From NCBI RefSeq assembly GCF_037975245.1, contig NC_092576.1, positions 31,102,611 to 31,166,610 on the forward strand: a DNA stretch of 64,000 nt, written 5' to 3'. A program made the translations under genes and the position numbers. This DNA is from Apostichopus japonicus (lineage: Eukaryota; Echinodermata; Holothuroidea; Aspidochirotida; Stichopodidae). The notes under the pieces are model-generated. The model ran no database searches. It was given only the letters and a program-made list of their open reading frames with translations, and was not told the origin of the DNA. Of this stretch, positions 1 to 64,000 are shown piece by piece; the stretch's first letter is position 1; the number at the start of each line of letters is the position of its first letter.

Positions 1-140
1 ACCGTGAGGGGATGAGAGGGAAACGCCTCTCTTGGGGGAGGGGAACGGGAAACACGAACAGGAACCACAAATCCGGCACAAAATACAATAAGAAAAACTT
101 CTTAGGAAAAGCACTCTAGTAAAACAGCTGGTAAACCGCA
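1..140 (-). mobile_element. Element A0: 5' end of a family A U2-specific non-LTR retrotransposon (partial, cut by window edge)
   Basis: These bases match the 5' end of full-length element A1 (12131-12270) with no difference that I can see. They hold only 5' untranslated sequence; ORF1 would begin about 60 bp beyond the left edge. The element joins U2 at nt 30/31, exactly as in A1 and A2, so a full-length copy probably lies to the left. It shares the A1 version of a small 5' UTR variant (agaaaaact at 91-99), whereas A2 reads agaaacact. Confidence 0.9.
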
Positions 141-170
141 ATGATCTTAGCCAAAAGGCCGAGAAGCGAT
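141..170 (-). pseudogene. U2 snRNA 5' fragment (nt 1-30) next to element A0
   Basis: The first 30 nt of U2, ending at its +1 base at 170. The remainder of this gene lies beyond element A0 outside the window. The promoter-proximal spacer to the right is intact, so transcription from here would run into element A0. Confidence 0.92.
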
Positions 171-210
171 AACGATAACTAATGACAATTCCCAGCGTTA
201 GGCTGTCTTA

Positions 211-231
211 CAACTTACCTTCGTTCTGAAA
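211..231 (-). promoter_or_regulatory. Position of the U2 proximal sequence element (candidate only)
   Basis: This segment is at -41 to -61 from the U2 start at 170, where snRNA genes of many animals carry the PSE bound by SNAPc. PSE sequences differ widely between phyla, so the call rests on position, not on a consensus match. The same segment precedes every U2 in the array, including those that drive an element-interrupted gene. No TATA-like sequence is present near -25, as expected for an RNA polymerase II snRNA gene. Confidence 0.3.
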
Positions 232-588: not shown

Positions 589-615
589 TTTTTTTATTTT
601 TTATTATTGATGATA

Positions 616-627: not shown

Positions 628-628
628 G

Positions 629-815: not shown

Positions 816-1273
816 AACGATAACTAATGACAATTCCCAGCGTTAGGCTGTCTTACAACTTACCTTCGTTCTGAAACTGACAGATATGGGAAGCCGATGA
901 CTGCTCTGATGTCTAAATATCACATCACCTCATATGTACCCTCGTTACGCCATTCTATATAACTTGAAGGTGTCTACAAACTTCGTTGTCCGCATTATCA
1001 CTGTTCCGCCCGGGTCCAGTGTTAGGCCTGAAAAATGGAAAAGGTCTATCTTAACCGCATGTTTTGACTGTGCCGAGAAATCCTTGGCCGGGAAACACTA
1101 TGTGACGTCACAGAAAGAGAATTTTTCCTGTGACGTCACCGGAAAGTATTTCCGATGGGTTGTATGAATGGAAATTCCAATTCGCTTAATCCGCGAGGGA
1201 AGATCAACAGGTAGGTAAGGTATCTCTTTTAACTTTTTTTATTTTTTATTATTGATGATATCCCCGAAGGGAG

Positions 1274-1460
1274 TGGGCCGAATCCCGGAGGTAGTGCAAA
1301 ACCGGGCCAACCCGTGACCAGGACGGAGCAAGCTCCTATTCCATAGTCCATGTGCAAAAATCAGTTTAATATACAAGCGACTCGATGAGTCGCGTTTCAG
1401 ATATTAAGCTGAAAAGAACAGATACTACACATGATCTTAGCCAAAAGGCCGAGAAGCGAT
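1274..1460 (-). ncRNA. U2: U2 snRNA gene, copy 2
   Basis: Intact, run 1; no difference from copy 1 seen. Confidence 0.97.
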
Positions 1461-7228: not shown

Positions 7229-7421
7229 TTCTTTTAATGTGGACATAAAACGCCACTTTTGAACAGTTTTTACAAAACAATCTTTTATCTTCTGCAACTT
7301 AGTAAACAAAAACCCTTGAAAACTACTTGTCGATACAGAACAGAACAGAAAACCATGTGAGAATTTTTGTCAGGTAACAAAACTCTCAATCTTAACTACC
7401 TTGAAAAAAAACCTCTCTATT

Positions 7422-10400
7422 CTACGGTGGGCGCCCATCAAGTACCAAACGTAGGTTGATGTCAGGCCACAGCCTTTGGTATTTCGTCAAGGAGAGACGT
7501 TGTCTCTCTACTTTAACCCGCTGTCTAATGTCCGTTTTGATTTGTAAAATAATCGTTTGTTCATTGAACTGTATTTTCTCGTACACCTTTGCATTCCTCC
7601 CCAGCCAAATGTACCGCTTAGCTGTAGAGGTGACTAGCCATATAAAGTTTTCATTAACCACAGAACACTGTGGGCCGCTACTTCCATACAAAATATACCA
7701 GACACTGGGGTGCCATTGGCGTACATGTAGACGATCCGATACTGAGTCCACCCAATCCCAGATCAAGTCATTCGACCTGCAAAACCAGAAGGCATGCCTG
7801 ATCGACTCCATCTCATTGCACCTTGGACACTCGCCATTGCCCAAACCCCAACTGTAGCGTTTAAAGTTTGTAACAATGGCCGAGTGGACAATACGCCAAG
7901 AGAGGTCCTTCAACCTGTTGTCCAAGATCTGGTGGTGGACTCCTTTCCACACGGCCGGCCATAAATGCAGAGATGACCCAAGAGGACCATCACGCGACAT
8001 GATTCGTGGAGTGGAGGCTACTCTCAACGTATCAGCAAACCTTTTCGTTGGCACCTTGTTCGCTAAAACGAGCGACTTGGATACCTCAGTCAAGTCACGC
8101 AAGGGTTTAACATAAAAATCTGGCGGGTCACATGAATGGGGAAAACAATTACTCCACTTGCCTGGAAAGAACTTCCGAAGACCTATGCCTATCCAATATT
8201 CCATCCAAGGATGAAAGGGCAAACGTAGGTCCAATTCGAAGGAGAGCAGGGGTTGAAGGGCCATTGCCCTCACAGTACTACCTATATCTGTCAACTCCAG
8301 CCCTCCTTCTTCGTGACTGTTATGTAGATGGCCCCGCGCCACCAGTTCCGTGCCACCCTTCCATATAAACTTAAAAATAATCTCATTTATCCTGCGTCGG
8401 ATCCGATCCGGTAAAGGATAAACAGGTGCCATATACCAGAATATTGGCGCCACAAGTACGTTCACTGCTTTGACTCTACCAATGATTGAAACATTCCTTT
8501 GTTTTGCCTTCTCTAGAGAGTTTTCGGCCTTTTGGACTTTTTCTTTCCAGCTCAAAATGTCTGATCGACCTGGACCAAAATAAACGCCATTAATTTTGAT
8601 CGACTCACAAGCCCACACAATGTCCAAAGGAATGTTACAATTTCTCCATTTGCCCAACTTAAGACCTTTCGTCTTAGCCATGTTAAGTTTGCTTCCCGTG
8701 GCCAATTCAAACTTCTTGAAACATTTGAAGAAACTCTTGATCGAGCCAAAGTCAGTGAAAAAAGCAGTAATGTCGTCCGCGTACTGCATTATCTTGACAC
8801 TTCTGCGCTTTCCTCCAGGTGGGCGGATTCCCCTGATGGTATCAATGTTGTCTATGCGCCTAGCCAACGATTCCGCAAAAATGATATACAGTAACGGGGA
8901 AAGCGCACAACCCTGTCGGACACCTTGCTTAACTGGGAATGATTTCGTAGTAAAACCATTAATAAAAAGTACACTAGAAATATCAAAATACAAAATACGA
9001 GCCCATCGGACGAAGTTAGGGCCAAACCCGAACTTCTCCAAAACACTAAACAAGTACTGGTGGTCCACCCTGTCAAAGGCTTTCTCCAGGTCAAGTGACA
9101 CTATGGCCCCACCCATGTCCCTGGACGATATAAAAGCTACTATATCCCTGAGCATCAGGAGGTTATGATGTATGCTCCTGCCCTTGACTGCGCACGTCTG
9201 GTGGTCGTTAATTATGTCAGGCAACGCTTTCGACATACGCATGCTCATTGCCTTGGACAGTATCTTGTAATCCGTATTTAACAGGGAAATAGGCCTTTTG
9301 TTTGCGGGTTTCCTACGATCTCCTTTCTTATGAAGGAGCGTTACAACTGCAATTCTCTGGGAAGGGCATAACGAACCCCGCACCCAAGATTCGTTATACA
9401 GTTCCAATAGGTCAGCACCGATGAAATCCCAGCACTCCAAATAAAACTCCCTTGGTAACCCGTCGCTGCCAGGCGATTTGTTTGGGGCCATCGCCTTGAC
9501 CGCAGCGAAATAATCCTTCGAGGTGATAGGCTCCTCCAGCCCTGCTGAAATCGGGGTTGGTACCGTTGTTTCCAATGATGCCAAAAAATCCCCTTGTAAC
9601 TCTATGTCGACGTCGTTTTTAGAGAAAAGGTCCCTATAAAAGTCCACATAGACGTCCCTGATTCGCTGTGGGTCTGATGTAATACCCCCCTCTGGCGTCT
9701 CCACAGCATCAATATGGCGATCCTCCGCATTCTTTCTTTCTTCAGCGAACATCTTCTTTGACGGTCGCTCCTGCTGATCTAAGAAAGACATGCGGCAACG
9801 GATCCTCGCACCCTCCGATTTCTTGTCCAGCAAGGCCTTCAATTTGACCACGACTTCCGCGTCCGACGGGTTGCCTTGGAGCTTCTTACACAGTGCTGTA
9901 AACTCATCGTTATGCTCTCTATTCTTGCGTTTCGAGTGTTCGATGGCCAAATCTTTAACATTAGATTTCACCATCTCCCACCAATCAGCGGTTGAATTGA
10001 AACCCTCTTTCAACGTCCGCCAGCCCAAGTAACGCCCTCTTAACTCTTCTTTGAAAATACGGTCCTGTAACAGCTGGATGTTCAACTTCCATCGACCTGG
10101 GCCAACTTTCGGTGGACCCGAAGGTCTCAATTCAAGGCGCACACCACAGTGATCGGATAAAACGCAAGGTACAATCTCGCACAGGTTAGCAGAGACCCCA
10201 ATCGGTGTATAAAACCTGTCGAGACGCGACGCCTGACCCGTCGTTTCCCGCCGCCAAGTAAACTCTCTGCGAGAAGGGTGGATATTCCTCCAAACGTCTT
10301 CCAGCCGGTAAGTATTACAAAGTAAGTTTAATTCAGCAATATCCACACGAGAAGGGGTGTGAACAGTAGTCTGCAGCTTGTCCTGTGCCAAATCCGGGAC

Positions 10401-10835
10401 ACAATTAAAGTCTCCGCATAACACTACTGGTAACCTGCCAGAAATATACGGGTACAAATTTTCAAAAAAGGACTTCCGCCGTGATGCCTCATTCGGGGCG
10501 TAAATATTGCAGAGCCGGAAACCATGCTCCGGACCGATCACATCACAAGCCACAACCCTACCGCGTGAATCAAAAGAAACCCGTCCAGTCTCTCCGAGAA
10601 TACCAGCCCGAAGCAAGATAGCAACCCCGCAACTAGAATGGCTTCCCAGAGAGAACAAGACCGAGCCCTTCCAAGCGCGCCTTAACATTCTGATGTCTTC
10701 TATCCCAAAATGGGTTTCTTGCAGACAAACTACATCTAGGTGTTTCTGCAGTCTGATCCACTGCAAGAGGCGATCCCTTTTAAGGGGATTCCTCAACCCA
10801 TTAACATTGAGTGTCAGAATGGAAAGACACGCCAT
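7422..10835 (-). CDS. ORF2 of element A1: APE endonuclease / reverse transcriptase
   Basis: 1137 residues from the ATG at 10835. An upstream TTG at 10847 in the same frame is unlikely to be used. The product nicks the U2 gene and copies the element RNA onto the nicked end (target-primed reverse transcription) in the nucleus. Residues 1-240 are an APE-type endonuclease: LTLNVNGLR (7-15, metal-binding N10), QETHF with E40, NIYAPN (110-115), GDFN (141-144), SRLDR (203-207) and SDH (227-229). The reverse transcriptase covers roughly 450-760, with SLDLEKAFD (catalytic D582), the QGVRQGCALSP block and YADD (685-688, catalytic D687/D688). Near the C terminus is a CX2CX7HX4C motif (CPRCNEMESIRHAFWFC). 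No RNase H domain is evident. The start lies 8 nt after the ORF1 stop in a different frame, so it may depend on reinitiation. Function is confidently assigned by motif; activity is inferred. Confidence 0.95.
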   Translation of the reverse strand: MACLSILTLNVNGLRNPLKRDRLLQWIRLQKHLDVVCLQETHFGIEDIRMLRRAWKGSVLFSLGSHSSCGVAILLRAGILGETGRVSFDSRGRVVACDVIGPEHGFRLCNIYAPNEASRRKSFFENLYPYISGRLPVVLCGDFNCVPDLAQDKLQTTVHTPSRVDIAELNLLCNTYRLEDVWRNIHPSRREFTWRRETTGQASRLDRFYTPIGVSANLCEIVPCVLSDHCGVRLELRPSGPPKVGPGRWKLNIQLLQDRIFKEELRGRYLGWRTLKEGFNSTADWWEMVKSNVKDLAIEHSKRKNREHNDEFTALCKKLQGNPSDAEVVVKLKALLDKKSEGARIRCRMSFLDQQERPSKKMFAEERKNAEDRHIDAVETPEGGITSDPQRIRDVYVDFYRDLFSKNDVDIELQGDFLASLETTVPTPISAGLEEPITSKDYFAAVKAMAPNKSPGSDGLPREFYLECWDFIGADLLELYNESWVRGSLCPSQRIAVVTLLHKKGDRRKPANKRPISLLNTDYKILSKAMSMRMSKALPDIINDHQTCAVKGRSIHHNLLMLRDIVAFISSRDMGGAIVSLDLEKAFDRVDHQYLFSVLEKFGFGPNFVRWARILYFDISSVLFINGFTTKSFPVKQGVRQGCALSPLLYIIFAESLARRIDNIDTIRGIRPPGGKRRSVKIMQYADDITAFFTDFGSIKSFFKCFKKFELATGSKLNMAKTKGLKLGKWRNCNIPLDIVWACESIKINGVYFGPGRSDILSWKEKVQKAENSLEKAKQRNVSIIGRVKAVNVLVAPIFWYMAPVYPLPDRIRRRINEIIFKFIWKGGTELVARGHLHNSHEEGGLELTDIGSTVRAMALQPLLSFELDLRLPFHPWMEYWIGIGLRKFFPGKWSNCFPHSCDPPDFYVKPLRDLTEVSKSLVLANKVPTKRFADTLRVASTPRIMSRDGPLGSSLHLWPAVWKGVHHQILDNRLKDLSWRIVHSAIVTNFKRYSWGLGNGECPRCNEMESIRHAFWFCRSNDLIWDWVDSVSDRLHVRQWHPSVWYILYGSSGPQCSVVNENFIWLVTSTAKRYIWLGRNAKVYEKIQFNEQTIILQIKTDIRQRVKVERQRLSLTKYQRLWPDINLRLVLDGRPP

Positions 10836-10843
10836 TAAAGCTG

Positions 10844-12073
10844 TCAAGCTTTTCGCAACTTCCGTCCGCTCTTGTCGGACGGCATCAAGTCGCTGTCAGA
10901 CGAGTCGCTGCAGTCTGCGTCTGACACCGCAAGGTCTCTCTTAAGGGAAACGGGAGGTACCGCCTCGTCACCCTCGTCCATTTCGGACCCGGAACCGTCC
11001 GATACGTGGGGGTTTGGGACCTTGGACTTTCCACCATTTTCATTTGAAGCCTTGTCCTTCTTTTCGCTTCCTTCCGCCACTGTCTTTCTTTCCTTTACAC
11101 CCTTCTTTCCCTTCCCTTCTTTCACTCCCTTTTCCTTTCCTGCCTCTTTTCTCCCGTCTTCTTTCACCTCCATGGCCGCATCACCCTCGTCCCTAGCACA
11201 GGTTCGTGTGTGAACATTGGAGGGCCCAGGGTCTTCCTCCACGACCTCGCTCTCAACCACATCCGTGGCTACTTCCTTTCCCCCTTGTGAAACAGTGGCA
11301 ACGGCAGGCTCCACAGATCCGGGTGGAGCTGTGGGTGCTGCAGGGGTGACTACCGTCGGAGCCTCTTCCTCCGAATCCGATCCTTGGGACTCTCTATCCC
11401 ATGCCGCCGTTGTATGTGCCTTCCTTGCAAAGGACATCGGGCACGCACGAAACGGATGGCCCAATTCCAAGCAAATCGAGCACCGTATGCCTTCCTTGCA
11501 GTCCTTGGACTGGTGACCCAGCCCCAAACACAAAAAACATTTCAAGTTGGGACACTCTTTTATACGGTGGTCCCGGCCCCCACATCGCAGGCAGGTGAAC
11601 GGCTGCCCAGGATAGCGAACGGATATGTTCCGAGCGCCAATCCGAAGAGACGAGGGGATATCCTTTTCGAGTACAACCTTGTATTGTCTGTTCCCGTTAA
11701 AAATACTCGGATATTCCGGGTATACACACCACCGGGAGGCGACCACCTTCCCATACATCCCCAAGGCAAACTTCACGATGTTGTCGTTCAACTCGTGCTC
11801 TACGTTGAGTACAGTAACAACGACATAGTCGTTACTGTACGGCTCCACCACTACACTGGGCAACCTCCTCAAAACCTTTACGAACGCTCGCTTCAATGCT
11901 ACCGTCTTGAACGTAACATCCATTGACTTGTTGGGCAGGACCTGCACTGCATCTAAAACAGACGCAACAGTAGCTCCAACACTTTCCAATATCTCGAAAA
12001 CCTGCCTCGGAGTACAAACACCGTCTGCACACCGAAGCAACACACTACAGTTGCGCCTGACCGATGAAGCCAT
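10844..12073 (-). CDS. ORF1 of element A1: CCHC zinc-knuckle nucleic-acid-binding protein
   Basis: 409 residues; the ATG at 12073 is the first possible start because an in-frame TAG lies two codons upstream. The protein presumably coats element RNA into a ribonucleoprotein. Residues 1-155 resemble the N-terminal region of ORF1 proteins of fish and invertebrate Tx1-like elements, possibly an RRM-like fold. Three CX2CX4HX4C knuckles follow at 161-174, 179-192 and 198-211. From about 220 the chain is low-complexity and charged: first acidic and proline/valine-rich, then lysine/glutamate/glycine-rich, then an acidic serine/aspartate tail. Family B ORF1 is clearly homologous over the first 210 residues, but A has no C2H2 fingers. 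Confidence 0.92.
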   Translation of the reverse strand: MASSVRRNCSVLLRCADGVCTPRQVFEILESVGATVASVLDAVQVLPNKSMDVTFKTVALKRAFVKVLRRLPSVVVEPYSNDYVVVTVLNVEHELNDNIVKFALGMYGKVVASRWCVYPEYPSIFNGNRQYKVVLEKDIPSSLRIGARNISVRYPGQPFTCLRCGGRDHRIKECPNLKCFLCLGLGHQSKDCKEGIRCSICLELGHPFRACPMSFARKAHTTAAWDRESQGSDSEEEAPTVVTPAAPTAPPGSVEPAVATVSQGGKEVATDVVESEVVEEDPGPSNVHTRTCARDEGDAAMEVKEDGRKEAGKEKGVKEGKGKKGVKERKTVAEGSEKKDKASNENGGKSKVPNPHVSDGSGSEMDEGDEAVPPVSLKRDLAVSDADCSDSSDSDLMPSDKSGRKLRKA

Positions 12074-12270
12074 CGCCTAGGCAAACGGAACCAGGGAACA
12101 GGGAAAAACTCACGGAATGCTAACACGCAAACCGTGAGGGGATGAGAGGGAAACGCCTCTCTTGGGGGAGGGGAACGGGAAACACGAACAGGAACCACAA
12201 ATCCGGCACAAAATACAATAAGAAAAACTTCTTAGGAAAAGCACTCTAGTAAAACAGCTGGTAAACCGCA

Positions 12271-15488: not shown

Positions 15489-15683
15489 TTCTTTTAATGT
15501 GGACATAAAACGCCACTTTTGAACAGTTTTTACAAAACAATCTTTTATCTTCTGCAACTTAGTAAACAAAAACCCTTCAAAACTACTTGTCGATACAGAA
15601 CAGAACAGAAAACCATGTGAGAATTTTTGTCAGGTAACAAAACTCTCAGTCTTAACTACCTTGAAAAAAAAAACCTCTCTATT

Positions 15684-18600
15684 CTACGGTGGGCGCCCAT
15701 CAAGTACCAGACGTAGGTTGATGTCAGGCCACAGCCTTTGGTATTTCGTCAAGGAGAGACGTTGTCTCTCTACTTTAACCCGCTGTCTAATGTCCGTTTT
15801 GATTTGTAAAATAATCGTTTGTTCATTGAACTGTATTTTCTCGTACACCTTTGCATTCCTCCCCAGCCAAATGTACCGCTTAGCTGTAGAGGTGACTAGC
15901 CATATAAAGTTTTCATTAACCACAGAACACTGTGGGCCGCTACTTCCATACAAAATATACCAGACACTGGGGTGCCATTGGCGTACATGTAGACGATCCG
16001 ATACTGAGTCCACCCAATCCCAGATCAAGTCATTCGACCTGCAAAACCAGAAGGCATGCCTGATCGACTCCATCTCATTGCACCTTGGACACTCGCCATT
16101 GCCCAAACCCCAACTGTAGCGTTTAAAGTTTGTAACAATGGCCGAGTGGACAATACGCCAAGAGAGGTCCTTCAACCTGTTGTCCAAGATCTGGTGGTGG
16201 ACTCCTTTCCACACGGCCGGCCATAAATGCAGAGATGACCCAAGAGGACCATCACGCGACATGATTCGTGGAGTGGAGGCTACTCTCAACGTATCAGCGA
16301 ACCTTTTCGTTGGCACCTTGTTCGCTAAAACGAGCGACTTGGATACCTCAGTCAAGTCACGCAGGGGTTTAACATAAAAATCTGGCGGGTCACATGAATG
16401 GGGAAAACAATTACTCCACTTGCCTGGAAAGAACTTCCGAAGACCTATGCCTATCCAATATTCCATCCAAGGATGAAAGGGCAAACGTAAGTCCAATTCG
16501 AAGGAGAGCAGGGGTTGAAGGGCCATTGCCCTCACAGTACTACTTATATCTGTCAACTCCAGCCCTCCTTCTTCGTGACTGTTATGTAGATGGCCCCGCG
16601 CCACCAGTTCCGTGCCACCCTTCCATATAAACTTAAAAATAATCTCATTTATCCTGCGTCGGATCCGATCCGGTAAAGGATAAACAGGTGCCATATACCA
16701 GAATATTGGCGCCACAAGTACGTTCACTGCTTTGACTCTACCAATGATTGAAACATTCCTTTGTTTTGCCTTCTCTAGAGAGTTTTCGGCCTTTTGGACT
16801 TTTTCTTTCCAGCTCAAAATGTCTGATCGACCTGGACCAAAATAAACGCCATTAATTTTGATCGACTCACAAGCCCACACAATGTCCAAAGGAATGTTAC
16901 AATTTCTCCATTTGCCCAACTTAAGACCTTTCGTCTTAGCCATGTTAAGTTTGCTTCCCGTGGCCAACTCAAACTTCTTGAAACATTTGAAGAAACTCTT
17001 GATAGAGCCAAAGTCAGTGAAAAAAGCAGTAATGTCGTCCGCGTACTGCATTATCTTGACACTTCTGCGCTTTCCTCCAGGTGGGCGGATTCCCCTGATG
17101 GTATCAATGCTGTCTATGCGCCTAGCCAACGATTCCGCAAAAATGATATACAGTAACGGGGAAAGCGCACAACCCTGTCGGACACCTTGCTTAACTGGGA
17201 ATGATTTCGTAGTAAAACCATTAATAAAAAGTACACTAGAAATATCAAAATACAAAATACGAGCCCATCGGACGAAGTTAGGGCCAAACCCGAACTTCTC
17301 CAAAACACTAAACAAGTACTGGTGGTCCACCCTGTCAAAGGCTTTCTCCAGGTCAAGTGACACTATGGCCCCACCCATGTCCCTGGACGATATAAAAGCT
17401 ACTATATCCCTGAGCATCAGGAGGTTATGATGTATGCTCCTGCCCTTGACTGCGCACGTCTGGTGGTCGTTAATTATGTCAGGCAACGCTTTCGACATAC
17501 GCATGCTCATTGCCTTGGACAGTATCTTGTAATCCGTATTTAACAGGGAAATAGGCCTTTTGTTTGCGGGTTTCCTACGATCTCCTTTCTTATGAAGGAG
17601 CGTTACAACTGCAACTCTCTGGGAAGGGCATAACGAACCCCGCACCCAAGATTCGTTATACAGTTCCAATAGGTCAGCACCGATGAAATCCCAGCACTCC
17701 AAATAAAACTCCCTTGGTAACCCGTCGCTGCCAGGCGATTTGTTTGGGGCCATCGCCTTGACCGCAGCGAAATAATCCTTCGAGGTGATAGGCTCCTCCA
17801 GCCCTGCTGAAATCGGGGTTGGTACCGTTGTTTCCAATGATGCCAAAAAATCCCCTTGTAACTCTATGTCGACGTCGTTTTTAGAGAAAAGGTCCCTATA
17901 AAAGTCCACATAGACGTCCCTGATTCGCTGTGGGTCTGATGTAAAGCCCCCCTCTGGCGTCTCCACAGCATCAATATGGCGATCCTCCGCATTCTTTCTT
18001 TCTTCAGCGAACATCTTCTTTGACGGTCGCTCCTGCTGATCTAAGAAAGACATGCGGCAACGGATCCTTGCACCCTCCGATTTCTTGTCCAGCAAGGCCT
18101 TCAATTTGACCACGACTTCCGCGTCCGACGGGTTGCCTTGGAGCTTCTTACACAGTGCTGTAAACTCATCGTTATGCTCTCTATTCTTGCGTTTCGAGTG
18201 TTCGATGGCCAAATCTTTAACATTAGATTTCACCATCTCCCACCAATCAGCGGTTGAATTGAAACCCTCTTTCAACGTCCGCCAGCCCAAGTAACGCCCT
18301 CTTAACTCTTCTTTGAAAATACGGTCCTGTAACAGCTGGATGTTCAACTTCCATCGACCTGGGCCAACTTTCGGTGGACCCGAAGGTCTCAATTCAAGGC
18401 GCACACCACAGTGATCGGATAAAACGCAAGGTACAATCTCGCACAGGTTAGCAGAGACCCCAATCGGTGTATAAAACCTGTCGAGACGCGACGCCTGACC
18501 CGTCGTTTCCCGCCTCCAAGTAAACTCTCTGCGAGAAGGGTGGATATTCCTCCAAACGTCTTCCAGCCGGTAAGTAATACAAAGTAAGTTTAATTCAGCA

Positions 18601-19097
18601 ATATCCACACGAGAAGGGGTGTGAAGAGTAGTCTGCAGCTTGTCCTGTGCCAAATCCGGGACACAATTAAAGTCTCCGCATAACACTACTGGTAACCTGC
18701 CAGAAATATACGGGTACAAATTTTCAAAAAAGGACTTCCGCCGTGATGCCTCATTCGGGGCGTAAATATTGCAGAGCCGGAAACCATGCTCCGGACCGAT
18801 CACATCACAAGCCACAACCCTACCGCGTGAATCAAAAGAAACCCGTCCAGTCTCTCCGAGAATACCAGCCCGAAGCAAGATAGCAACCCCGCAACTAGAA
18901 TGGCTTCCCAGAGAGAACAAGACCGAGCCCTTCCAAGCGCGCCTTAACATTCTGATGTCTTCTATCCCAAAATGGGTTTCTTGCAGACAAACTACATCTA
19001 GGTGTTTCTGCAGTCTGATCCACTGCAAGAGGCGATCCCTTTTAAGGGGATTCCTCAACCCATTAACATTGAGTGTCAGAATGGAAAGACACGCCAT
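15684..19097 (-). CDS. ORF2 of element A2: APE endonuclease / reverse transcriptase
   Basis: 1137 residues from the ATG at 19097. It has the same domains and catalytic residues as the A1 copy. Substitutions against A1 include V-to-L and N-to-I in the second half of the endonuclease domain (TTLHTPSR, LLCITY), I-to-F before the RT (EGGFTSD), I-to-V in SQRVAVV, N-to-S near DSIDTIRG and G-to-S in LTDISS. None touches a catalytic motif, so the enzyme is predicted to be intact. Confidence 0.95.
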   Translation of the reverse strand: MACLSILTLNVNGLRNPLKRDRLLQWIRLQKHLDVVCLQETHFGIEDIRMLRRAWKGSVLFSLGSHSSCGVAILLRAGILGETGRVSFDSRGRVVACDVIGPEHGFRLCNIYAPNEASRRKSFFENLYPYISGRLPVVLCGDFNCVPDLAQDKLQTTLHTPSRVDIAELNLLCITYRLEDVWRNIHPSRREFTWRRETTGQASRLDRFYTPIGVSANLCEIVPCVLSDHCGVRLELRPSGPPKVGPGRWKLNIQLLQDRIFKEELRGRYLGWRTLKEGFNSTADWWEMVKSNVKDLAIEHSKRKNREHNDEFTALCKKLQGNPSDAEVVVKLKALLDKKSEGARIRCRMSFLDQQERPSKKMFAEERKNAEDRHIDAVETPEGGFTSDPQRIRDVYVDFYRDLFSKNDVDIELQGDFLASLETTVPTPISAGLEEPITSKDYFAAVKAMAPNKSPGSDGLPREFYLECWDFIGADLLELYNESWVRGSLCPSQRVAVVTLLHKKGDRRKPANKRPISLLNTDYKILSKAMSMRMSKALPDIINDHQTCAVKGRSIHHNLLMLRDIVAFISSRDMGGAIVSLDLEKAFDRVDHQYLFSVLEKFGFGPNFVRWARILYFDISSVLFINGFTTKSFPVKQGVRQGCALSPLLYIIFAESLARRIDSIDTIRGIRPPGGKRRSVKIMQYADDITAFFTDFGSIKSFFKCFKKFELATGSKLNMAKTKGLKLGKWRNCNIPLDIVWACESIKINGVYFGPGRSDILSWKEKVQKAENSLEKAKQRNVSIIGRVKAVNVLVAPIFWYMAPVYPLPDRIRRRINEIIFKFIWKGGTELVARGHLHNSHEEGGLELTDISSTVRAMALQPLLSFELDLRLPFHPWMEYWIGIGLRKFFPGKWSNCFPHSCDPPDFYVKPLRDLTEVSKSLVLANKVPTKRFADTLRVASTPRIMSRDGPLGSSLHLWPAVWKGVHHQILDNRLKDLSWRIVHSAIVTNFKRYSWGLGNGECPRCNEMESIRHAFWFCRSNDLIWDWVDSVSDRLHVRQWHPSVWYILYGSSGPQCSVVNENFIWLVTSTAKRYIWLGRNAKVYEKIQFNEQTIILQIKTDIRQRVKVERQRLSLTKYQRLWPDINLRLVLDGRPP

Positions 19098-19105
19098 TAA
19101 AGCTG

Positions 19106-20335: not shown

Positions 20336-20532
20336 CGCCTAGGCAAACGGAACCAGGGAACAGGGAAAAACTCACGGAATGCTAACACGCAAACCGTGAG
20401 GGGATGAGAGGGAAACGCCTCTCTTGGGGGAGGGGAACGGGAAACACGAACAGGAACCACAAATCCGGCACAAAATACAATAAGAAACACTTCTTAGGAA
20501 AAGCACTCTAGTAAAACAGCTGGTAAACCGCA

Positions 20533-23108: not shown

Positions 23109-23320
23109 TTTCTTTCAAGTTTATTCAATGTCAATGCAATTTACAAAGGTATATTTATCACAAAATCATTTACGTATAACGCAAAGTCATTATAGAGTAT
23201 TTATGTTAAAATTAAACGTCCGTCATGTAACAACAAGTGACAAGTGATACTGAATACAGAATATAACATATGATATATTGTATACCCCCACACTGACAAT
23301 CCCAGAGGACTTAACTCAGA

Positions 23321-41502: not shown

Positions 41503-41510
41503 TAAAGCTG

Positions 41511-42741: not shown

Positions 42742-42770
42742 CGCCTAGGCAAACGGAACCAGGGAACAGG

Positions 42771-43426: not shown

Positions 43427-43638
43427 TTTCTTTCAAGTTTATTCAATGTCAATGCAATTTACAAAGGTATATTTATCACAAAATCATTTACGTATAACGC
43501 AAAGTCATTATAGAGTATTTATGTTAAAATTAAACGTCCGTCATGTAACAACAAGTGACAAGTGATACTGAATACAGAATATAACATATGATATATTGTA
43601 TACCCCCACACTGACAATCCCAGAGGACTTAACTCAGA

Positions 43639-46600
43639 CTACGGTAATGAAACTACTGGCTGGTTATTTACGACGCTCACGAAGGAACTGCCCTTGACCC
43701 AGACCTTGTTAAACTTCACCTCGGGGAGACGTATAAAATCTGCCCTCACTCTTTCGTTTACGTCGCTTTTGATCATGTTGATGACGTCATCATCACTCAA
43801 CCTACGATTTTCAAAGGTCAACAAACATCTACTCCTCCACATAAAATACTTTGTAACGGTAAATATGAACCAAGCCCTGTCGAAGGCTGCTGTGTCTCCG
43901 CTGGGGCTCGGTGTACCGTACAGAAATATTTCCTTCCTGAGCGTCGCATTGTTACCGAAAAGCAGCTGGAATGACCTAAAGGTCCAATGTAAAATACCGA
44001 TTGTGCTAGAACATTCCCAGAAAACATGATCTATTGTTTCTTTCTTTCTACAATTAGTGTGCGGACAGAGCCCGTTTCCTATCCCCCACAGCTGTAACTT
44101 AGCCCGGGTAAAGAGAACCTTATGTACAAGCCGCCATGCAAACACAGTTAATTTGTTCTCTAATACGGGGTTGAATGCCCTCTTCCAAATATCTTTCCAC
44201 GGTCTGTCGGGATCATGGTTTTCTACGGACGGCCTAACTACTTCGTGGCGAAGGTGACGCACGATATCTTTCAGCTGTTTAACTTCATCCACAAAAGCAC
44301 GGTTTCTGTGAAAGATTGCCTTAATGTGGTGACAAGCCGTGTTTAAAGTAACAGTCCCTGAATCTGAGTTGGGTTTCGAATTAGACCAGAGGATGGGAAA
44401 ACAAGCCCGGAGAGGCTTAGCTATGAGGTACCTGACGAACATTAGGTGGGGCAAAGAGAAATCCCCTGACAATACGGGCAGAATAGGCTTTACTAGTAGG
44501 GCAGAAGCCTTCTCCCCTACACGGTCCAACCCTAACCCTCCCTCCGTTTTACTGAGGGTAACAACTTTTCTCGACACCAATTCTGTTTTACCGGACCACA
44601 AGAATGTGAATGCAGCCCCTTGTATTTTACGGATTAATTGGTCCGACATGGGAAAAACTGGGGCGACAAAGAAAAACAAGGGATAAATTACCACGTTTAA
44701 AACTAAGACTTTACCGATAAGAGACAATTGCCTGCTCTTCCACGCGTTTAAACAATTCTTTGCCGTTTCTAGTTTCTGTGACCAGTTGCTAGTCACTGCA
44801 TTGACTGTGCCGAACACTACACCTGTTATTTTAATCTCCGTGTCCTTCCAGTCTATGTTGCCTGGTAGTTTCCTCCCTACAAAACCCCCCAGCTTTAAAC
44901 CGGCTGTTTTGTTCATGTTAATGGTCGCACCGGTAGCTTTGTGAAAAAGTTCAAAAGCGTGAAAGAACTGACGAATGTCACTTCCGTTGGTTCCGATACA
45001 CGTGGTATCGTCCGCGTACTGTAACAATTTAACAACTTTCCCACCCGCCCCGGGAATGGTGAATCCCCGAATATTCTTAGAAAGGTTGATGAACCTGGCT
45101 AGCGGCTCAATGAATAACACATACAGCGAGGGTGACAAGGGACACCCTTGTCTTACACCCCTCTTGATCCTTACGTCATCGGAAAGATGACCGTTAATTA
45201 AAATACGGCTAGTAATGCCGTTGTACAAAATACGAATCCACTTCCGGAAGTTTTCTCCCAGCTTAAACTTCAACAATATTCTGTGAAGGAAGTCCCAATT
45301 AACTTTATCAAAGGCTTTCTCTTGATCTATGGAGATAAGCGCACAGGGAGTCTGACTGTCTTTCACGTAGTCGATGATGTCACGACAAAGCAATAAATTA
45401 TGATGAATAGACCGGCCCGGCACAGAACATGTTTGGCTCTCACTCGCTAATAGCGGCATACAACGTGTCAATCTGTTTTGAATAATCTTTGACAAGATCT
45501 TATAATCAACACTCAGGAGACTTATTGGTCTACGGTTGGCCGGGTCGTGGGGGTCACCTTTCTTCGGCAGAAGAACGATAATAGCCGTTTTCTGTGTCAG
45601 AGAGAGAGAGCCTTTACTGAAAATTTCGTGGAATACCGAGAGTAGATCTGTGCCGAGGAGGTCAAAGAACTGTGCGTAAAACTCGCACGGCAAACCATCA
45701 ATCCCAGGTGTCTTATTGAATGCCATTAACGATAATGCTTGTTTAAGTTCAGAGAGTTCAATCGGTCTCTCCAGTGCGTCGATTGAATCATCGTCTAACA
45801 CAGAACCAATACAATCTAATAGTTGATCTTGCACGCCGGTAGCGGCGTCAAATTCTACGTTGTAAAGTGATGAATAAAACTCGTGATAGGCTTTGATAAT
45901 TTCTTTCTGATCACGGGTCACGTGACCCTGTGTAGTACGGACAGAGCAAATCGACTTGCCTTCAGCGCGATGCCTTTCTTCTTTGAAGAAGAAAGACGAG
46001 GGGCTTTCCCCGGCTTCTAAATGTTTCACCCTAGAACGGATGAGAGCGCCCTGATGTTCGTTCTTTAAAAGAGATTCTAACTCAGTTTTGTCGGCGTTAA
46101 TACAACTATTCTGCAGGGTTGAAATTCGGTCGCGCCTTTCGTTAGCCAGGCGAACCCCGTGCTTGATGATAAGTCGCTTTGCTCTGTCTTTGAAATCCTC
46201 CCACCAATCAATAATAGAATCATACCCCGGTTTAAGGGTAGACCAAAGATGAAAATATTGAACGAAATCAGATTTGAATTCAGAATCGTTCAGAACAGAA
46301 ACATTACATTTCCATACACCTTTACCCTTACGTTGGGCATTAACAATATCAAAACGAATAGAGACCAAGTTATGGTCGGACAAAGAAAATGACACATTCG
46401 AAACATTTTTAATTGAAATAATATTACGGGGGTAATAAATTCGGTCAATGCGGGAACTCTGTTCCTTCCCCGGGTGGCCCCAAGTGTGCCCAGGGGACTG
46501 AGGGTAAATATCTCGCCAGGCATCGCCAAGATTCCGAGAAGCGGTAAAAGCTTTCAATTCCTGCCAACCCACGTGGCAGGAGGAATTTGTAGATACACCC

Positions 46601-47091
46601 GATCTATCGACATTCTTCTCAATGGAGTTAAAGTCACCAGCGAGTAGTACTGATTGATTACCACGTGTCATATTATACAAATTATTGAAAAATGAGACTC
46701 GCTTCCTGGGGCTGTTCGGTGCATAAATATTACAAAACCTGACGCACGTGGAGTCGGGGAAACTGACCAGGGCTGAAATGTATCGCCCTTCTAAATCCTT
46801 ACGGATCTGATCTATCTTACCTTTGAAGGAGGTGGAGAAGGCTATGCCGACTCCACCGGACTGCGGGGAGGGGGAAGGGGAAAAAACAAAGTTCCCGTTC
46901 CACTCTTTGTTAAAATGAAAACAATCTTCCTCATTACGAAAATGAGTTTCTTGGAGAAACACGATATCATAGTTAAACAATTTTAAATATTGAGCCACTT
47001 GACGGCATTTCACTTTGTCACGCAGACCGTTGACATTTAATGTGCAAAGAATAAACATTGAGATAATAAAAGGGGCATTAACAGGTTTCAT
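43639..47091 (-). CDS. ORF2 of element B2: APE endonuclease / reverse transcriptase
   Basis: 1150 residues from the ATG at 47091; I see no amino acid difference from B1 ORF2. All catalytic motifs are present. Confidence 0.94.
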   Translation of the reverse strand: MKPVNAPFIISMFILCTLNVNGLRDKVKCRQVAQYLKLFNYDIVFLQETHFRNEEDCFHFNKEWNGNFVFSPSPSPQSGGVGIAFSTSFKGKIDQIRKDLEGRYISALVSFPDSTCVRFCNIYAPNSPRKRVSFFNNLYNMTRGNQSVLLAGDFNSIEKNVDRSGVSTNSSCHVGWQELKAFTASRNLGDAWRDIYPQSPGHTWGHPGKEQSSRIDRIYYPRNIISIKNVSNVSFSLSDHNLVSIRFDIVNAQRKGKGVWKCNVSVLNDSEFKSDFVQYFHLWSTLKPGYDSIIDWWEDFKDRAKRLIIKHGVRLANERRDRISTLQNSCINADKTELESLLKNEHQGALIRSRVKHLEAGESPSSFFFKEERHRAEGKSICSVRTTQGHVTRDQKEIIKAYHEFYSSLYNVEFDAATGVQDQLLDCIGSVLDDDSIDALERPIELSELKQALSLMAFNKTPGIDGLPCEFYAQFFDLLGTDLLSVFHEIFSKGSLSLTQKTAIIVLLPKKGDPHDPANRRPISLLSVDYKILSKIIQNRLTRCMPLLASESQTCSVPGRSIHHNLLLCRDIIDYVKDSQTPCALISIDQEKAFDKVNWDFLHRILLKFKLGENFRKWIRILYNGITSRILINGHLSDDVRIKRGVRQGCPLSPSLYVLFIEPLARFINLSKNIRGFTIPGAGGKVVKLLQYADDTTCIGTNGSDIRQFFHAFELFHKATGATINMNKTAGLKLGGFVGRKLPGNIDWKDTEIKITGVVFGTVNAVTSNWSQKLETAKNCLNAWKSRQLSLIGKVLVLNVVIYPLFFFVAPVFPMSDQLIRKIQGAAFTFLWSGKTELVSRKVVTLSKTEGGLGLDRVGEKASALLVKPILPVLSGDFSLPHLMFVRYLIAKPLRACFPILWSNSKPNSDSGTVTLNTACHHIKAIFHRNRAFVDEVKQLKDIVRHLRHEVVRPSVENHDPDRPWKDIWKRAFNPVLENKLTVFAWRLVHKVLFTRAKLQLWGIGNGLCPHTNCRKKETIDHVFWECSSTIGILHWTFRSFQLLFGNNATLRKEIFLYGTPSPSGDTAAFDRAWFIFTVTKYFMWRSRCLLTFENRRLSDDDVINMIKSDVNERVRADFIRLPEVKFNKVWVKGSSFVSVVNNQPVVSLP

Positions 47092-48568
47092 CAATAAAAT
47101 AAAGGTCGAAAAACTCTGTGTTGTGACTCAGGACATAATTGGGGTGCCTGTTGGCTAAGTGGTTAGCCCATTCCTGATGATCATTGCACCGTACAGTGCA
47201 ACCACGTACGGGGCAATCAATACGTTCAAGGGAAGTAACCTGGTGGTCTCTTACTTGGTGAATATTATGCAAATCCGAAGAATTAAATTCTTCGGAGCAC
47301 CCGTCCCTCCCACACGTGATCCAGTTCCCGGTCTCGGTGAAGATTTTTGACCTGAGAACAATCTCCCGTGCCGAGTCTACTACCCCTTCCCGCTTAGCGG
47401 GTCTACTCTGAGAGCGCGACCGTTGTGAAGATCGGCCTCTTTTCAGACTATTACGGTCCCGCTGCCTTCCCGCCCCCTCCCCATCTACTTCCCCCATTCC
47501 CGTAAACATACCCTCGGATGGGTCAGAATCTAATCGCTGACCCATTTCTCCAACGCTCTCGCTCCAGTCTCCTTGACTCCATTCCATCTGTGTTTCTTCT
47601 GGATTCACAGTTTCGCCTTCGGCCTTGCTCGCGGATCTGGCGTTGCCCGCCCTCTCCTGCCCCACCCCTTCGTCCGACTGCTCGGACAACACTTCGTCTG
47701 CCTCAGTACTCGTCTGTGGTACGTCTCCTTTCCCTTCGCTTAAATCATCCTTATCCGCTGTCTCAGGGAGTTTGGGGGCGTCGACCTCGGCCCCTTCCCC
47801 CTTTTCACTCCCCGTGCCTTCCTCTGCAGTCGTAGGTGGTACGTCTTCCCCTTCTTTCTCGTCGTTACCCTGGACCCTGGCTCCTCCGCTGACCCACTCC
47901 GATGTGGGGTTGATCAGTCGGTTCGCGAAAGAGACGGGGCACTTCCGGTAGCCGTGACCCTCTTTGCCGCACGTCGTGCACACCACCTTCTCCACACACT
48001 GGCTCGCTACGTGGCCCAGCTTGAAGCACTTAAAACACTTCACTTGATTGCAAGCGGCTGCCAAGTGGCCTGTCCCGTCACATTTCAGGCAGGTGATCGG
48101 CTAACCCCTATACCTGACCCAACACTGCCTGCCCGCTAGTTTGAGAGAAGACGGCACGTCTTTCTCAAGGACAACTTTGTATTGACGTATTCCGTTGAAG
48201 ACGCCAGACTGATCCTTATAAGTTAAGAATGTTCCGCCAACAACTTTGCCGTACCTCCCTAGCACAAAACGAACAACGTTGTCGTCCAGTTCATACGGTA
48301 CGTGAAGAACGGTAATAATTTTCACGTTCTCCACGTAATTGTTTGTCACTACTTCAGGTTCCTCACTTAAGATTTTCACATATTTATTTTTAATGTCTGC
48401 CGATTTAAAGGAGACATCATACAAACGCCCAGGCAGAGACTGAACTGCCACTAAATCTTTGGTCTCAATTCCATTTTTCTTTAAAAGTTGAAAAACATCA
48501 CTAACTGTGACATCCTTCTGAAACTTCAGGGATAAAGTCAAAACTCGTTGAAGCGAGTTTCTTTCCAT
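47078..48568 (-). pseudogene. ORF1 of element B2, interrupted by an amber codon
   Basis: Codon 156 is TAG instead of CAG (plus-strand 48101-48103), just before the first zinc knuckle. The N-terminal product would have 155 residues and no zinc-binding domain. Downstream the frame is open to the normal end at 47078 with all knuckles and both C2H2 fingers. The rest matches B1 apart from a synonymous change in knuckle 2. Confidence 0.9.
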
Positions 48569-48724
48569 GTTAAAGTACCCGAGCCCGAAGGCTGGGTATT
48601 TCCGAATTACTCAAAAACCAAAACAAAATTATAGTCACCACGGATTCCGCAGGCACAGCCCACGCGCTCACTGAAACGTAGTACAAATCACGAGAGAGCT
48701 GTAAAACACGTCCGCTCACACCGA

Positions 48725-60197: not shown

Positions 60198-60350
60198 TGG
60201 GCCGAATCCCGGAGGTAGTGCAAAACCGGGCCAACCCGTGACCAGGACGGAGCAAGCTCCTATTCCATAGTCCATGTGCAAAAATCAGTTTAATATACAA
60301 GCGACTCGATGAGTCGCGTTTCAGATATTAAGCTGAAAAGAACAGATACT
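60198..60350 (-). pseudogene. U2 snRNA 3' fragment (nt 35-187) interrupted by B3
   Basis: Split at nt 34/35; the 5' part lies beyond the right edge on the far side of B3. Confidence 0.95.
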
Positions 60351-63300
60351 TTTCTTTCAAGTTTATTCAATGTCAATGCAATTTACAAAGGTATATTTAT
60401 CACAAAATCATTTACGTATAACGCAAAGTCATTATAGAGTATTTATGTTAAAATTAAACGTCCGTCATGTAACAACAAGTGACAAGTGATACTGAATACA
60501 GAATATAACATATGATATATTGTATACCCCCACACTGACAATCCCAGAGGACTTAACTCAGACTACGGTAATGAAACTACTGGCTGGTTATTTACGACGC
60601 TCACGAAGGAACTGCCCTTGACCCAGACCTTGTTAAACTTCACCTCGGGGAGACGTATAAAATCTGCCCTCACTCTTTCGTTTACGTCGCTTTTGATCAT
60701 GTTGATGACGTCATCATCACTCAACCTACGATTTTCAAAGGTCAACAAACATCTACTCCTCCACATAAAATACTTTGTAACGGTAAATATGAACCAAGCC
60801 CTGTCGAAGGCTGCTGTGTCTCCGCTGGGGCTCGGTGTACCGTACAGAAATATTTCCTTCCTGAGCGTCGCATTGTTACCGAAAAGCAGCTGGAATGACC
60901 TAAAGGTCCAATGTAAAATACCGATTGTGCTAGAACATTCCCAGAAAACATGATCTATTGTTTCTTTCTTTCTACAATTAGTGTGCGGACAGAGCCCGTT
61001 TCCTATCCCCCACAGCTGTAACTTAGCCCGGGTAAAGAGAACCTTATGTACAAGCCGCCATGCAAACACAGTTAATTTGTTCTCTAATACGGGGTTGAAT
61101 GCCCTCTTCCAAATATCTTTCCACGGTCTGTCGGGATCATGGTTTTCTACGGACGGCCTAACTACTTCGTGGCGAAGGTGACGCACGATATCTTTCAGCT
61201 GTTTAACTTCATCCACAAAAGCACGGTTTCTGTGAAAGATTGCCTTAATGTGGTGACAAGCCGTGTTTAAAGTAACAGTCCCTGAATCTGAGTTGGGTTT
61301 CGAATTAGACCAGAGGATGGGAAAACAAGCCCGGAGAGGCTTAGCTATGAGGTACCTGACGAACATTAGGTGGGGCAAAGAGAAATCCCCTGACAATACG
61401 GGCAGAATAGGCTTTACTAGTAGGGCAGAAGCCTTCTCCCCTACACGGTCCAACCCTAACCCTCCCTCCGTTTTACTGAGGGTAACAACTTTTCTCGACA
61501 CCAATTCTGTTTTACCGGACCACAAGAATGTGAATGCAGCCCCTTGTATTTTACGGATTAATTGGTCCGACATGGGAAAAACTGGGGCGACAAAGAAAAA
61601 CAAGGGATAAATTACCACGTTTAAAACTAAGACTTTACCGATAAGAGACAATTGCCTGCTCTTCCACGCGTTTAAACAATTCTTTGCCGTTTCTAGTTTC
61701 TGTGACCAGTTGCTAGTCACTGCATTGACTGTGCCGAACACTACACCTGTTATTTTAATCTCCGTGTCCTTCCAGTCTATGTTGCCTGGTAGTTTCCTCC
61801 CTACAAAACCCCCCAGCTTTAAACCGGCTGTTTTGTTCATGTTAATGGTCGCACCGGTAGCTTTGTGAAAAAGTTCAAAAGCGTGAAAGAACTGACGAAT
61901 GTCACTTCCGTTGGTTCCGATACACGTGGTATCGTCCGCGTACTGTAACAATTTAACAACTTTCCCACCCGCCCCGGGAATGGTGAATCCCCGAATATTC
62001 TTAGAAAGGTTGATGAACCTGGCTAGCGGCTCAATGAATAACACATACAGCGAGGGTGACAAGGGACACCCTTGTCTTACACCCCTCTTGATCCTTACGT
62101 CATCGGAAAGATGACCGTTAATTAAAATACGGCTAGTAATGCCGTTGTACAAAATACGAATCCACTTCCGGAAGTTTTCTCCCAGCTTAAACTTCAACAA
62201 TATTCTGTGAAGGAAGTCCCAATTAACTTTATCAAAGGCTTTCTCTTGATCTATGGAGATAAGCGCACAGGGAGTCTGACTGTCTTTCACGTAGTCGATG
62301 ATGTCACGACAAAGCAATAAATTATGATGAATAGACCGGCCCGGCACAGAACATGTTTGGCTCTCACTCGCTAATAGCGGCATACAACGTGTCAATCTGT
62401 TTTGAATAATCTTTGACAAGATCTTATAATCAACACTCAGGAGACTTATTGGTCTACGGTTGGCCGGGTCGTGGGGGTCACCTTTCTTCGGCAGAAGAAC
62501 GATAATAGCCGTTTTCTGTGTCAGAGAGAGAGAGCCTTTACTGAAAATTTCGTGGAATACCGAGAGTAGATCTGTGCCGAGGAGGTCAAAGAACTGTGCG
62601 TAAAACTCGCACGGCAAACCATCAATCCCAGGTGTCTTATTGAATGCCATTAACGATAATGCTTGTTTAAGTTCAGAGAGTTCAATCGGTCTCTCCAGTG
62701 CGTCGATTGAATCATCGTCTAACACAGAACCAATACAATCTAATAGTTGATCTTGCACGCCGGTAGCGGCGTCAAATTCTACGTTGTAAAGTGATGAATA
62801 AAACTCGTGATAGGCTTTGATAATTTCTTTCTGATCACGGGTCACGTGGCCCTGTGTAGTACGGACAGAGCAAATCGACTTGCCTTCAGCGCGATGCCTT
62901 TCTTCTTTGAAGAAGAAAGACGAGGGGCTTTCCCCGGCTTCTAAATGTTTCACCCTAGAACGGATGAGAGCGCCCTGATGTTCGTTCTTTAAAAGAGATT
63001 CTAACTCAGTTTTGTCGGCGTTAATACAACTATTCTGCAGGGTTGAAATTCGGTCGCGCCTTTCGTTAGCCAGGCGAACCCCGTGCTTGATGATAAGTCG
63101 CTTTGCTCTGTCTTTGAAATCCTCCCACCAATCAATAATAGAATCATACCCCGGTTTAAGGGTAGACCAAAGATGAAAATATTGAACGAAATCAGATTTG
63201 AATTCAGAATCGTTCAGAACAGAAACATTACATTTCCATACACCTTTACCCTTACGTTGGGCATTAACAATATCAAAACGAATAGAGACCAAGTTATGGT

Positions 63301-64000
63301 CGGACAAAGAAAATGACACATTCGAAACATTTTTAATTGAAATAATATTACGGGGGTAATAAATTCGGTCAATGCGGGAACTCTGTTCCTTCCCCGGGTG
63401 GCCCCAAGTGTGCCCAGGGGACTGAGGGTAAATATCTCGCCAGGCATCGCCAAGATTCCGAGAAGCGGTAAAAGCTTTCAATTCCTGCCAACCCACGTGG
63501 CAGGAGGAATTTGTAGATACACCCGATCTATCGACATTCTTCTCAATGGAGTTAAAGTCACCAGCGAGTAGTACTGATTGATTACCACGTGTCATATTAT
63601 ACAAATTATTGAAAAATGAGACTCGCTTCCTGGGGCTGTTCGGTGCATAAATATTACAAAACCTGACGCACGTGGAGTCGGGGAAACTGACCAGGGCTGA
63701 AATGTATCGCCCTTCTAAATCCTTACGGATCTGATCTATCTTACCTTTGAAGGAGGTGGAGAAGGCTATGCCGACTCCACCGGACTGCGGGGAGGGGGAA
63801 GGGGAAAAAACAAAGTTCCCGTTCCACTCTTTGTTAAAATGAAAACAATCTTCCTCATTACGAAAATGAGTTTCTTGGAGAAACACGATATCATAGTTAA
63901 ACAATTTTAAATATTGAGCCACTTGACGGCATTTCACTTTGTCACGCAGACCGTTGACATTTAATGTGCAAAGAATAAACATTGAGATAATAAAAGGGGC
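60351..64000 (-). mobile_element. Element B3: family B retrotransposon, 3' part (cut by window edge)
   Basis: Holds the 212-bp 3' UTR and nearly all of ORF2. The edge falls at the position equivalent to 26758 in B1, just short of the ORF1 stop, so ORF1 and the 5' end are not visible. The 3' junction is the same as in B1 and B2. Confidence 0.94.
60563..64000 (-). CDS. ORF2 of element B3: APE endonuclease / reverse transcriptase (start outside window)
   Basis: 1145 codons plus stop are visible; by comparison with B1 only the first few codons are missing. Internally it starts no later than an ATG at 63982. One synonymous base difference from B1 was noticed (cacgtggccc near 62848). All endonuclease and RT motifs are present, including YADD. 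Confidence 0.94.
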   Translation of the reverse strand, partial: APFIISMFILCTLNVNGLRDKVKCRQVAQYLKLFNYDIVFLQETHFRNEEDCFHFNKEWNGNFVFSPSPSPQSGGVGIAFSTSFKGKIDQIRKDLEGRYISALVSFPDSTCVRFCNIYAPNSPRKRVSFFNNLYNMTRGNQSVLLAGDFNSIEKNVDRSGVSTNSSCHVGWQELKAFTASRNLGDAWRDIYPQSPGHTWGHPGKEQSSRIDRIYYPRNIISIKNVSNVSFSLSDHNLVSIRFDIVNAQRKGKGVWKCNVSVLNDSEFKSDFVQYFHLWSTLKPGYDSIIDWWEDFKDRAKRLIIKHGVRLANERRDRISTLQNSCINADKTELESLLKNEHQGALIRSRVKHLEAGESPSSFFFKEERHRAEGKSICSVRTTQGHVTRDQKEIIKAYHEFYSSLYNVEFDAATGVQDQLLDCIGSVLDDDSIDALERPIELSELKQALSLMAFNKTPGIDGLPCEFYAQFFDLLGTDLLSVFHEIFSKGSLSLTQKTAIIVLLPKKGDPHDPANRRPISLLSVDYKILSKIIQNRLTRCMPLLASESQTCSVPGRSIHHNLLLCRDIIDYVKDSQTPCALISIDQEKAFDKVNWDFLHRILLKFKLGENFRKWIRILYNGITSRILINGHLSDDVRIKRGVRQGCPLSPSLYVLFIEPLARFINLSKNIRGFTIPGAGGKVVKLLQYADDTTCIGTNGSDIRQFFHAFELFHKATGATINMNKTAGLKLGGFVGRKLPGNIDWKDTEIKITGVVFGTVNAVTSNWSQKLETAKNCLNAWKSRQLSLIGKVLVLNVVIYPLFFFVAPVFPMSDQLIRKIQGAAFTFLWSGKTELVSRKVVTLSKTEGGLGLDRVGEKASALLVKPILPVLSGDFSLPHLMFVRYLIAKPLRACFPILWSNSKPNSDSGTVTLNTACHHIKAIFHRNRAFVDEVKQLKDIVRHLRHEVVRPSVENHDPDRPWKDIWKRAFNPVLENKLTVFAWRLVHKVLFTRAKLQLWGIGNGLCPHTNCRKKETIDHVFWECSSTIGILHWTFRSFQLLFGNNATLRKEIFLYGTPSPSGDTAAFDRAWFIFTVTKYFMWRSRCLLTFENRRLSDDDVINMIKSDVNERVRADFIRLPEVKFNKVWVKGSSFVSVVNNQPVVSLP

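Follow-up and report, generated by a model that had tools for sequence, protein, structure and literature searches.

What is a short repeat doing inside U2 small nuclear RNA (snRNA) genes that also take in long retroelements, and how is it related to its copies elsewhere in the genome? The question is raised by a stretch of the Apostichopus japonicus genome 64,000 nucleotides (nt) long, positions 31102611 to 31166610 of contig C16 (the window), which lies in an array of U2 genes. A preliminary description had 10 of 54 U2 genes split by four insertions of family A, three of family B and three of family C, all in U2 orientation. We find the same: 44 intact genes and 10 split ones (A1-A4, B1-B3 and C1-C3), with every insert oriented as U2. 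Families A and B are long interspersed elements (LINEs). Family C is a short interspersed element (SINE) with U2 sequence at its 5' end. We argue that the array is probably both a landing site shared by LINEs and the source locus of SINE C, which would leave it as a chimeric RNA made from the U2 promoter.

Family C is a dispersed SINE with a U2 head

The preliminary description took C for a short third family of the U2 array. C does lie in the array, but it is not confined to U2. All genome searches were made over the 671,581,487-base assembly. A search with the 142-nt C insert (40 scored out of 2429 first-look candidates) gave at least 60 matches on 15 contigs. A gapped pattern that joins the U2 head to the C body matches 243 times (125 forward, 118 reverse); 3 of these matches are in the array, and the reversed control gives 0. 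An exact pattern for the tail, which is blind to the head, matches 259 times, 7 of them in the array. Family C is a dispersed SINE with most of its genomic copies outside U2, and these copies reject the idea of a U2-confined family. Two other identities were considered and dropped. Similarity to A or B is not convincing enough to make C a deletion derivative of either. As a known RNA family, the sole match of C is a small nucleolar RNA on the opposite strand, with an E value of 1.5 and far below the cut-off.

The structure of the copies was read in a sample of 60 regions from 100 listed of the 259 exact-tail matches (up to contig C9:11543503), selected without regard to the head. The sample leaves out the L002 cluster described below and places examined earlier. 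Two regions with several copies (L062 and L078) were excluded from the duplication counts. The analysis covers 58 copies. The sites are not all independent, since one duplication is shared by L053 and L054 and the pre-integration sites of L047, L049 and L084 are nearly identical. U2 head sequence is present in 47 of the 58 copies, and the other 11 are truncated within the body at varied points. AGT directly follows TTAAAA in 55/58. A duplication of at least 6 nt flanks 49 copies and none flanks 9; the 36 usable duplications are 9-21 nt long (median 14). With these target duplications and its varied 5' truncation, SINE C is mobilised by a non-long-terminal-repeat (non-LTR) element.

The heads begin near the first nucleotide of U2. 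The start lies at U2 nt 1-7 in 36 of the 47 headed copies (our yardstick ends at nt 1). Among the 45 whose head starts by nt 30, the last U2 position of the unbroken match is nt 45 (29 copies), 46 (3), 49 (5) or 50 (2); in the other 6 the match stops before nt 45. LINEs A and B in the array likewise have 5' junctions at nt 45 and 50. The sites into which dispersed copies went have A at +1 (30/36), T or C at +2 (33/36) and C at +3 (18/36), and U2 at the corresponding position reads ATC. AGT stands ahead of the cut in only 1/36 of these sites, so the AGT travels with the element. Where a site shares letters with AGT the register was shifted, by rule, to three letters after TTAAAA.

Copies inside U2 genes have the same structure. 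The order in C1 and C2 is U2 spacer, U2 1-45, body, AGT and the rest of U2, and head, body and AGT follow one another as in dispersed copies. C3, C5 and C7 are truncated C bodies joined directly to U2, at nt 53 in C3 and nt 40 in C5. This means that C RNA does integrate in U2 at the nick.

The short junction between head and body links the two sets of copies. Among 100 listed of the 243 head-body matches the junction is CCCTTC in 21, CCCTTA in 20, the longer CCCTTTCGAG in 18 and CTTTTA in 7; CTTTTC and CTTTCA occur 3 times each, and the others, in other spellings, at most 3 times. C1 has the CCCTTA type, one of the two commonest among dispersed copies. The junction of C2 is rare. It occurs at four places, in C2 itself and in three dispersed copies, which lie on contigs C2 and C17. 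The third of these dispersed copies (L131) has its own duplication, and none is evident at L001. Array copies C1, C2 and C4 have a 137-nt body that also appears, without a single change, among sampled copies with several dispersed junctions: CCCTTC (4/11), CCCTTA (9/11), CTTTTA (3/5) and CTTTTC (1/3). One CCCTTC and one CTTTTC copy in these counts come from L062, and one CCCTTA copy from L078. The counts are restricted to the sample, as a broader tally also took in 20 best-match regions, and L020 and L042 are one locus.

A C insert ends in AGT, so landing before ATC recreates AGTATC, and chains of copies do occur. At L002 (contig C2:21947400-21949133) nine C copies lie head-to-tail with short ATCCTAT-like spacers, as if each insertion had renewed the target site. 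Chains of two or three copies are found at L003, L011, L062 and L078.

Another copy (L004, contig C18:9489618-9489959) lies within or next to a sequence that resembles U4 snRNA (46.7 bits for Rfam U4, cut-off 46). The SINE copy there scores as U2 itself (47.7 bits, cut-off 46), so automatic U2 gene counts can be inflated by C.

LINEs that share one site in U2

The preliminary description placed the insertions close together in U2, and they are. In the window U2 resumes at nt 38 after A and at nt 35 after B and C, or at 38 if the common AGT is counted as the element's. The 5' junctions differ, at U2 nt 30 in full-length A, 45 in A4, C1 and C2, 50 in B and 53 in C3. We also read 156 kb of flanking sequence, or 220 kb in total. 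Exact 3' junctions at U2 37/38 within it number 7 for A, 7 for B, 6 for C and, for the further families introduced below, 3 for D, 4 for E and 1 for an E-like copy. The AAAGT at the end of B, D and E leaves two positions for their nick, 34/35 or 37/38. A ends without AGT, which sets the nick at 37/38 to within one ambiguous A.

Family A is 5.04 kb long and B 5.3 kb, each with two open reading frames (ORFs). A domain search finds zf-CCHC knuckles in ORF1 of both, and they can be seen by eye in ORF1 of D and E. The ORF2 proteins of A, B, D and E carry Exo_endo_phos, the apurinic/apyrimidinic endonuclease (APE) domain, and RVT_1. The best PDB matches of A and B ORF2, the two that were compared with PDB, are to the LINE-1 ORF2 protein. 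Judged by these sequences, A and B are APE-type LINEs of the L1 group (Tx1-like). Several copies are open, as had been noted. ORF2 is open in all three complete copies of A in the window and in 3/3 of B (one of them cut by the edge). ORF1 is open in 2/3 of A and interrupted in B2.

A genome search with 800 nt of the 3' end upholds the expectation that A and B are found almost only in U2. All 8 matches of A and all 7 of B belong to the array or its edge. One of those of A, the eighth, is a degenerate copy at the left edge, about 92% alike, beside which no U2 flank was seen. Two autonomous families is an understatement for the array. Beyond the window, beside U2 halves, are families D and E, E-like degenerate copies (G) and a degenerate family H, which matches D at 38-64% in protein pieces. 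The array thus contains at least three further related LINE families, D, E and the degenerate H, and they join U2 at the same point.

In a tree of ORF2 proteins A groups with Y, a dispersed family, at a support of 99/100, and B, D, E and two more dispersed families, X and Z, stand apart from this pair. The order among B, D, E, X and Z is mostly unresolved. Since A and Y are separate from B, D and E, the use of U2 is not one local radiation. Two distinct LINE lineages, A on one side and B, D and E on the other, use one nearly nucleotide-precise site.

Family X is Tx1-like, matches E at about 50% and ends in a poly-A tail (L107-L110, L112-L114, L120-L122). Four of the eight copies inspected lie within clusters of transfer RNA (tRNA) genes (Gly, Ser, Leu and Glu by ARAGORN), and this placement suggests that X may target tRNA genes. 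Family Y is also Tx1-like and matches A at about 40% (L115-L119; also on contigs C17, C11, C16 and C7). It accounts for 33 of the 40 matches listed, and 32 of these 33 are free of internal stops.

The source of the U2 head

How did a SINE come to carry the 5' end of U2? New 5' heads of retrotransposed RNAs are usually ascribed to template switching or RNA fusion. We favour a route through the array. Several L1-group LINE families would integrate by target-primed reverse transcription at the U2 37/38 nick, between TGTAGT and ATCTG. A C body landing in that nick would have U2 1-45 (sometimes up to 49-50) and the spacer with its presumed promoter placed in front of it. Transcription from the U2 promoter, as we infer it, would give a chimeric RNA made of the U2 5' end, the C body and AGT, and the C bodies lodged in U2 genes would be source genes. 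The direction would be from the array to dispersed sites. The enzyme of a LINE helper would copy the chimeric RNA into off-target sites, mostly ones that start with A(T/C), and leave promoterless copies there. Alternatively, the RNA would re-enter a U2 gene and regain a promoter. One can push this further and make C an obligately homing SINE. Its promoterless dispersed copies would be dead ends, survival would depend on re-entry into U2 to rebuild both promoter and head, and heads would be captured at the DNA level. We hold this stronger version only tentatively, and lean slightly against it.

It must be said that several observations weigh against the array as source. The older CCCTTTCGAG type has the identical body in 0/7 sampled copies. 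The junctions of C3, C4 and C6 were not found outside the array in a genome-wide search, which leaves C1 and C2 as the only copies with candidate daughters; C3, whose junction occurs once in the genome, is rejected as a source gene. Nowhere in the 220 kb read is there a junction of type CCCTTC, the most frequent among dispersed copies, or of the U2-extended types CTTTTA and CTTTTC. Junctions fall into two length classes (56 of the 100 listed at 11 nt, 44 at 15-16 nt) and their variants sit in a predicted hairpin loop, so the variants could be substitutions and not fresh captures. None of the LINE families compared has a 3' end that clearly resembles that of C. Separate U2 genes on contig C15 are the same as array U2 over 80 nt from TTCTCGG, and the U2 head could equally derive from them.

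Some of these points fit a different history, in which the head was fused once, long ago. C would then be transcribed from its own internal or flanking promoter, and the array copies would be insertions of a U2-headed RNA that annealed to U2 through its head, and not sources. Within a length class the junction variants could have arisen from a single ancestral one by mutation, and both the lack of dispersed relatives of C3, C4 and C6 and the absence of the commonest dispersed junction from the array sequence read are in line with this. However, mutation is a poor explanation for identical 137-nt bodies under several junctions, and the heads that extend to U2 49-50 agree with the target sequence. 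The truncated bodies of C3 and C5 also mean that joining of body and U2 occurs at the DNA level. We consider a single old fusion unlikely.

The main rival is that the head is added at each insertion, either by ligation of RNAs or because the reverse transcriptase switches template from C RNA to U2 snRNA, with the array copies as chance off-shoots. U2 RNA is abundant. LINE-1 insertions chimeric with snRNAs, U2 and U6 included, are known, and in PMC13174262 such snRNA 5' sequence is explained by RNA ligation or template switching. Unlike those chimeras, C has junctions that are common to many copies. Template switching predicts heads of variable length, yet most end at nt 45, which is a position where LINEs join U2 in the array. 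Junction classes with identical bodies argue for inherited chimeric templates. We rate this rival as quite unlikely. Least of all do we believe in two autonomous site-specific LINEs and a short U2-confined family competing for one target, since C is dispersed and the LINE families number more than two, even though the DNA search places every match of A and B in the array or at its edge and the families meet U2 at a single 3' position.

The U2 genes on contig C15 are four in number (L127-L130, at 3.62, 6.37, 6.48 and 6.53 Mb), score above the Rfam cut-off and have a different upstream region. The 500-base stretches that were read contain no insertion. These genes may be a source of intact U2 RNA.

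If the array is the source of C, which LINE is the helper? The helper would be expected to cut U2 at 37/38 or close by. A and the copies C1 and C2 have the 8-nt duplication 38-45 in common, and A also uses the nick that C uses. B has junction 50 in common with C copies of the CTTTTC type. What B, D and E share with C is limited to a short end, ...ACTT...AAAGT. All four families, A, B, D and E, are candidates. The dispersed families X and Y were rejected as helpers, as their 3' ends are unlike C. A terminal hairpin common to B, D, E and C was also discarded; it is weak in B and unpredicted in D and E, and we do not use it as evidence.

Parts of this system have precedents. Keno is a U2-specific non-LTR retrotransposon of the Tx1 clade, and going by its description in PMC4640811, A, B, D and E are like it in their APE-type endonuclease, U2 target and conserved 5' part of U2. 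The same paper gives Keno the 3' flank of Utopia, which starts at nt 39 in Phytophthora; the 3' junctions of A, B, D and E are at U2 37/38 (or 34/35). In contrast to Keno, at least five related families are present here in one array. Utopia, as PMC4640811 describes it, is U2-specific with a restriction-like endonuclease, has several families in one Phytophthora U2 array and shows a tandem insertion in Nasonia. Its downstream U2, from nt 39 in Phytophthora, puts it at nearly the same site (PMC4640811). Unlike Utopia, A, B, D and E carry an APE-type domain in ORF2 and not a restriction-like endonuclease.

C itself has a likeness among SINEs. Its U2-derived 5' head recalls SINEU, which Kojima reportedly described in 2015 from crocodilians as short non-autonomous SINEs with heads derived from U1 or U2, recurrent head addition and a Tx1 helper. 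C differs from SINEU in that its head ends where LINEs join U2 and its bodies lie inside U2 genes of the array. U2-specific LINEs, multi-family U2 arrays (Utopia) and snRNA-headed SINEs are already known. SINE bodies caught inside the genes that donate their head are, to our knowledge, new. A literature search that left most subscription papers outside found nothing on this element.

We argue that the head-capture step can be seen here in DNA, as SINE bodies in U2 at the LINE nick that match chimeras elsewhere. If the array is the source of C, target-specific LINEs would, simply through their choice of site, provide SINEs with a strong host promoter, and the U2 array would be a model in which the birth and renewal of SINEs can be tested. 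If C is also an obligately homing SINE, capture from the helper's target gene would explain recurrent snRNA heads in general.

Layout of the array

The array extends from about 30.96 to 31.170 Mb on contig C16, with about 21 kb near its left end that give no U2 matches. The 44 intact genes of the window are on the minus strand in 645-nt units; 43 are identical and 1 has a single mismatch. The other features are given in the table.

Table. Reference repeat unit and insertions in the window (position 1 is its first nucleotide)
Feature	Position	Strand	Remarks
U2 repeat unit	816..1460	-	Reference 645-nt unit (U2 gene and spacer); presumed promoter in spacer
A1	1..140	-	Family A LINE, 5' end; remainder on contig C16 below the window
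A2	7229..12270	-	Family A LINE, both ORFs open; junctions as in A3
A3	15489..20532	-	Family A LINE, 5044 nt; ORFs of 410 and 1157 amino acids open (stop to stop); U2 1-30, then A, then U2 from 38; 7 nt of U2 lost
B1	23109..28406	-	Family B LINE; ORFs of 510 and 1162 amino acids open (stop to stop)
C1	29710..29854	-	SINE body after U2 1-45: junction CCTTA, 137-nt body, AGT
C2	31153..31297	-	SINE body after U2 1-45: junction CCCTC, 137-nt body, AGT
U2 nt 1-45 preceding C2	31298..31342	-	Identical to the head of full-length dispersed SINE copies
C3	31951..32072	-	5'-truncated SINE body and AGT in U2; U2 1-53 upstream
A4	37894..42770	-	5'-truncated family A LINE; U2 1-45, A, U2 from 38; 8-nt duplication ATCTGTTC
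B2	43427..48724	-	Family B LINE, 5298 nt; U2 1-50, B, U2 from 35; ORF2 open, ORF1 interrupted
B3	60351..64000	-	Family B LINE in U2; 5' part beyond the window

Three pairs of LINE copies show 0 nt of difference over some 5 kb: A1 and A2, A3 and A6, and B1 and B4, of which A6 and B4 are outside the window. This means that copy number is not the number of insertions. Such identity suggests that some LINE copies are probably duplicated array units, and that duplication of units adds to copy number.

An unrelated LINE, family F, is found left of the window. It is 4671 nt long with two long open ORFs, and its two identical copies (contig C16:31041098-31051081) lie in the spacer directly before the start of U2, one unit apart. 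The pair is likely the result of one insertion followed by duplication of the unit.

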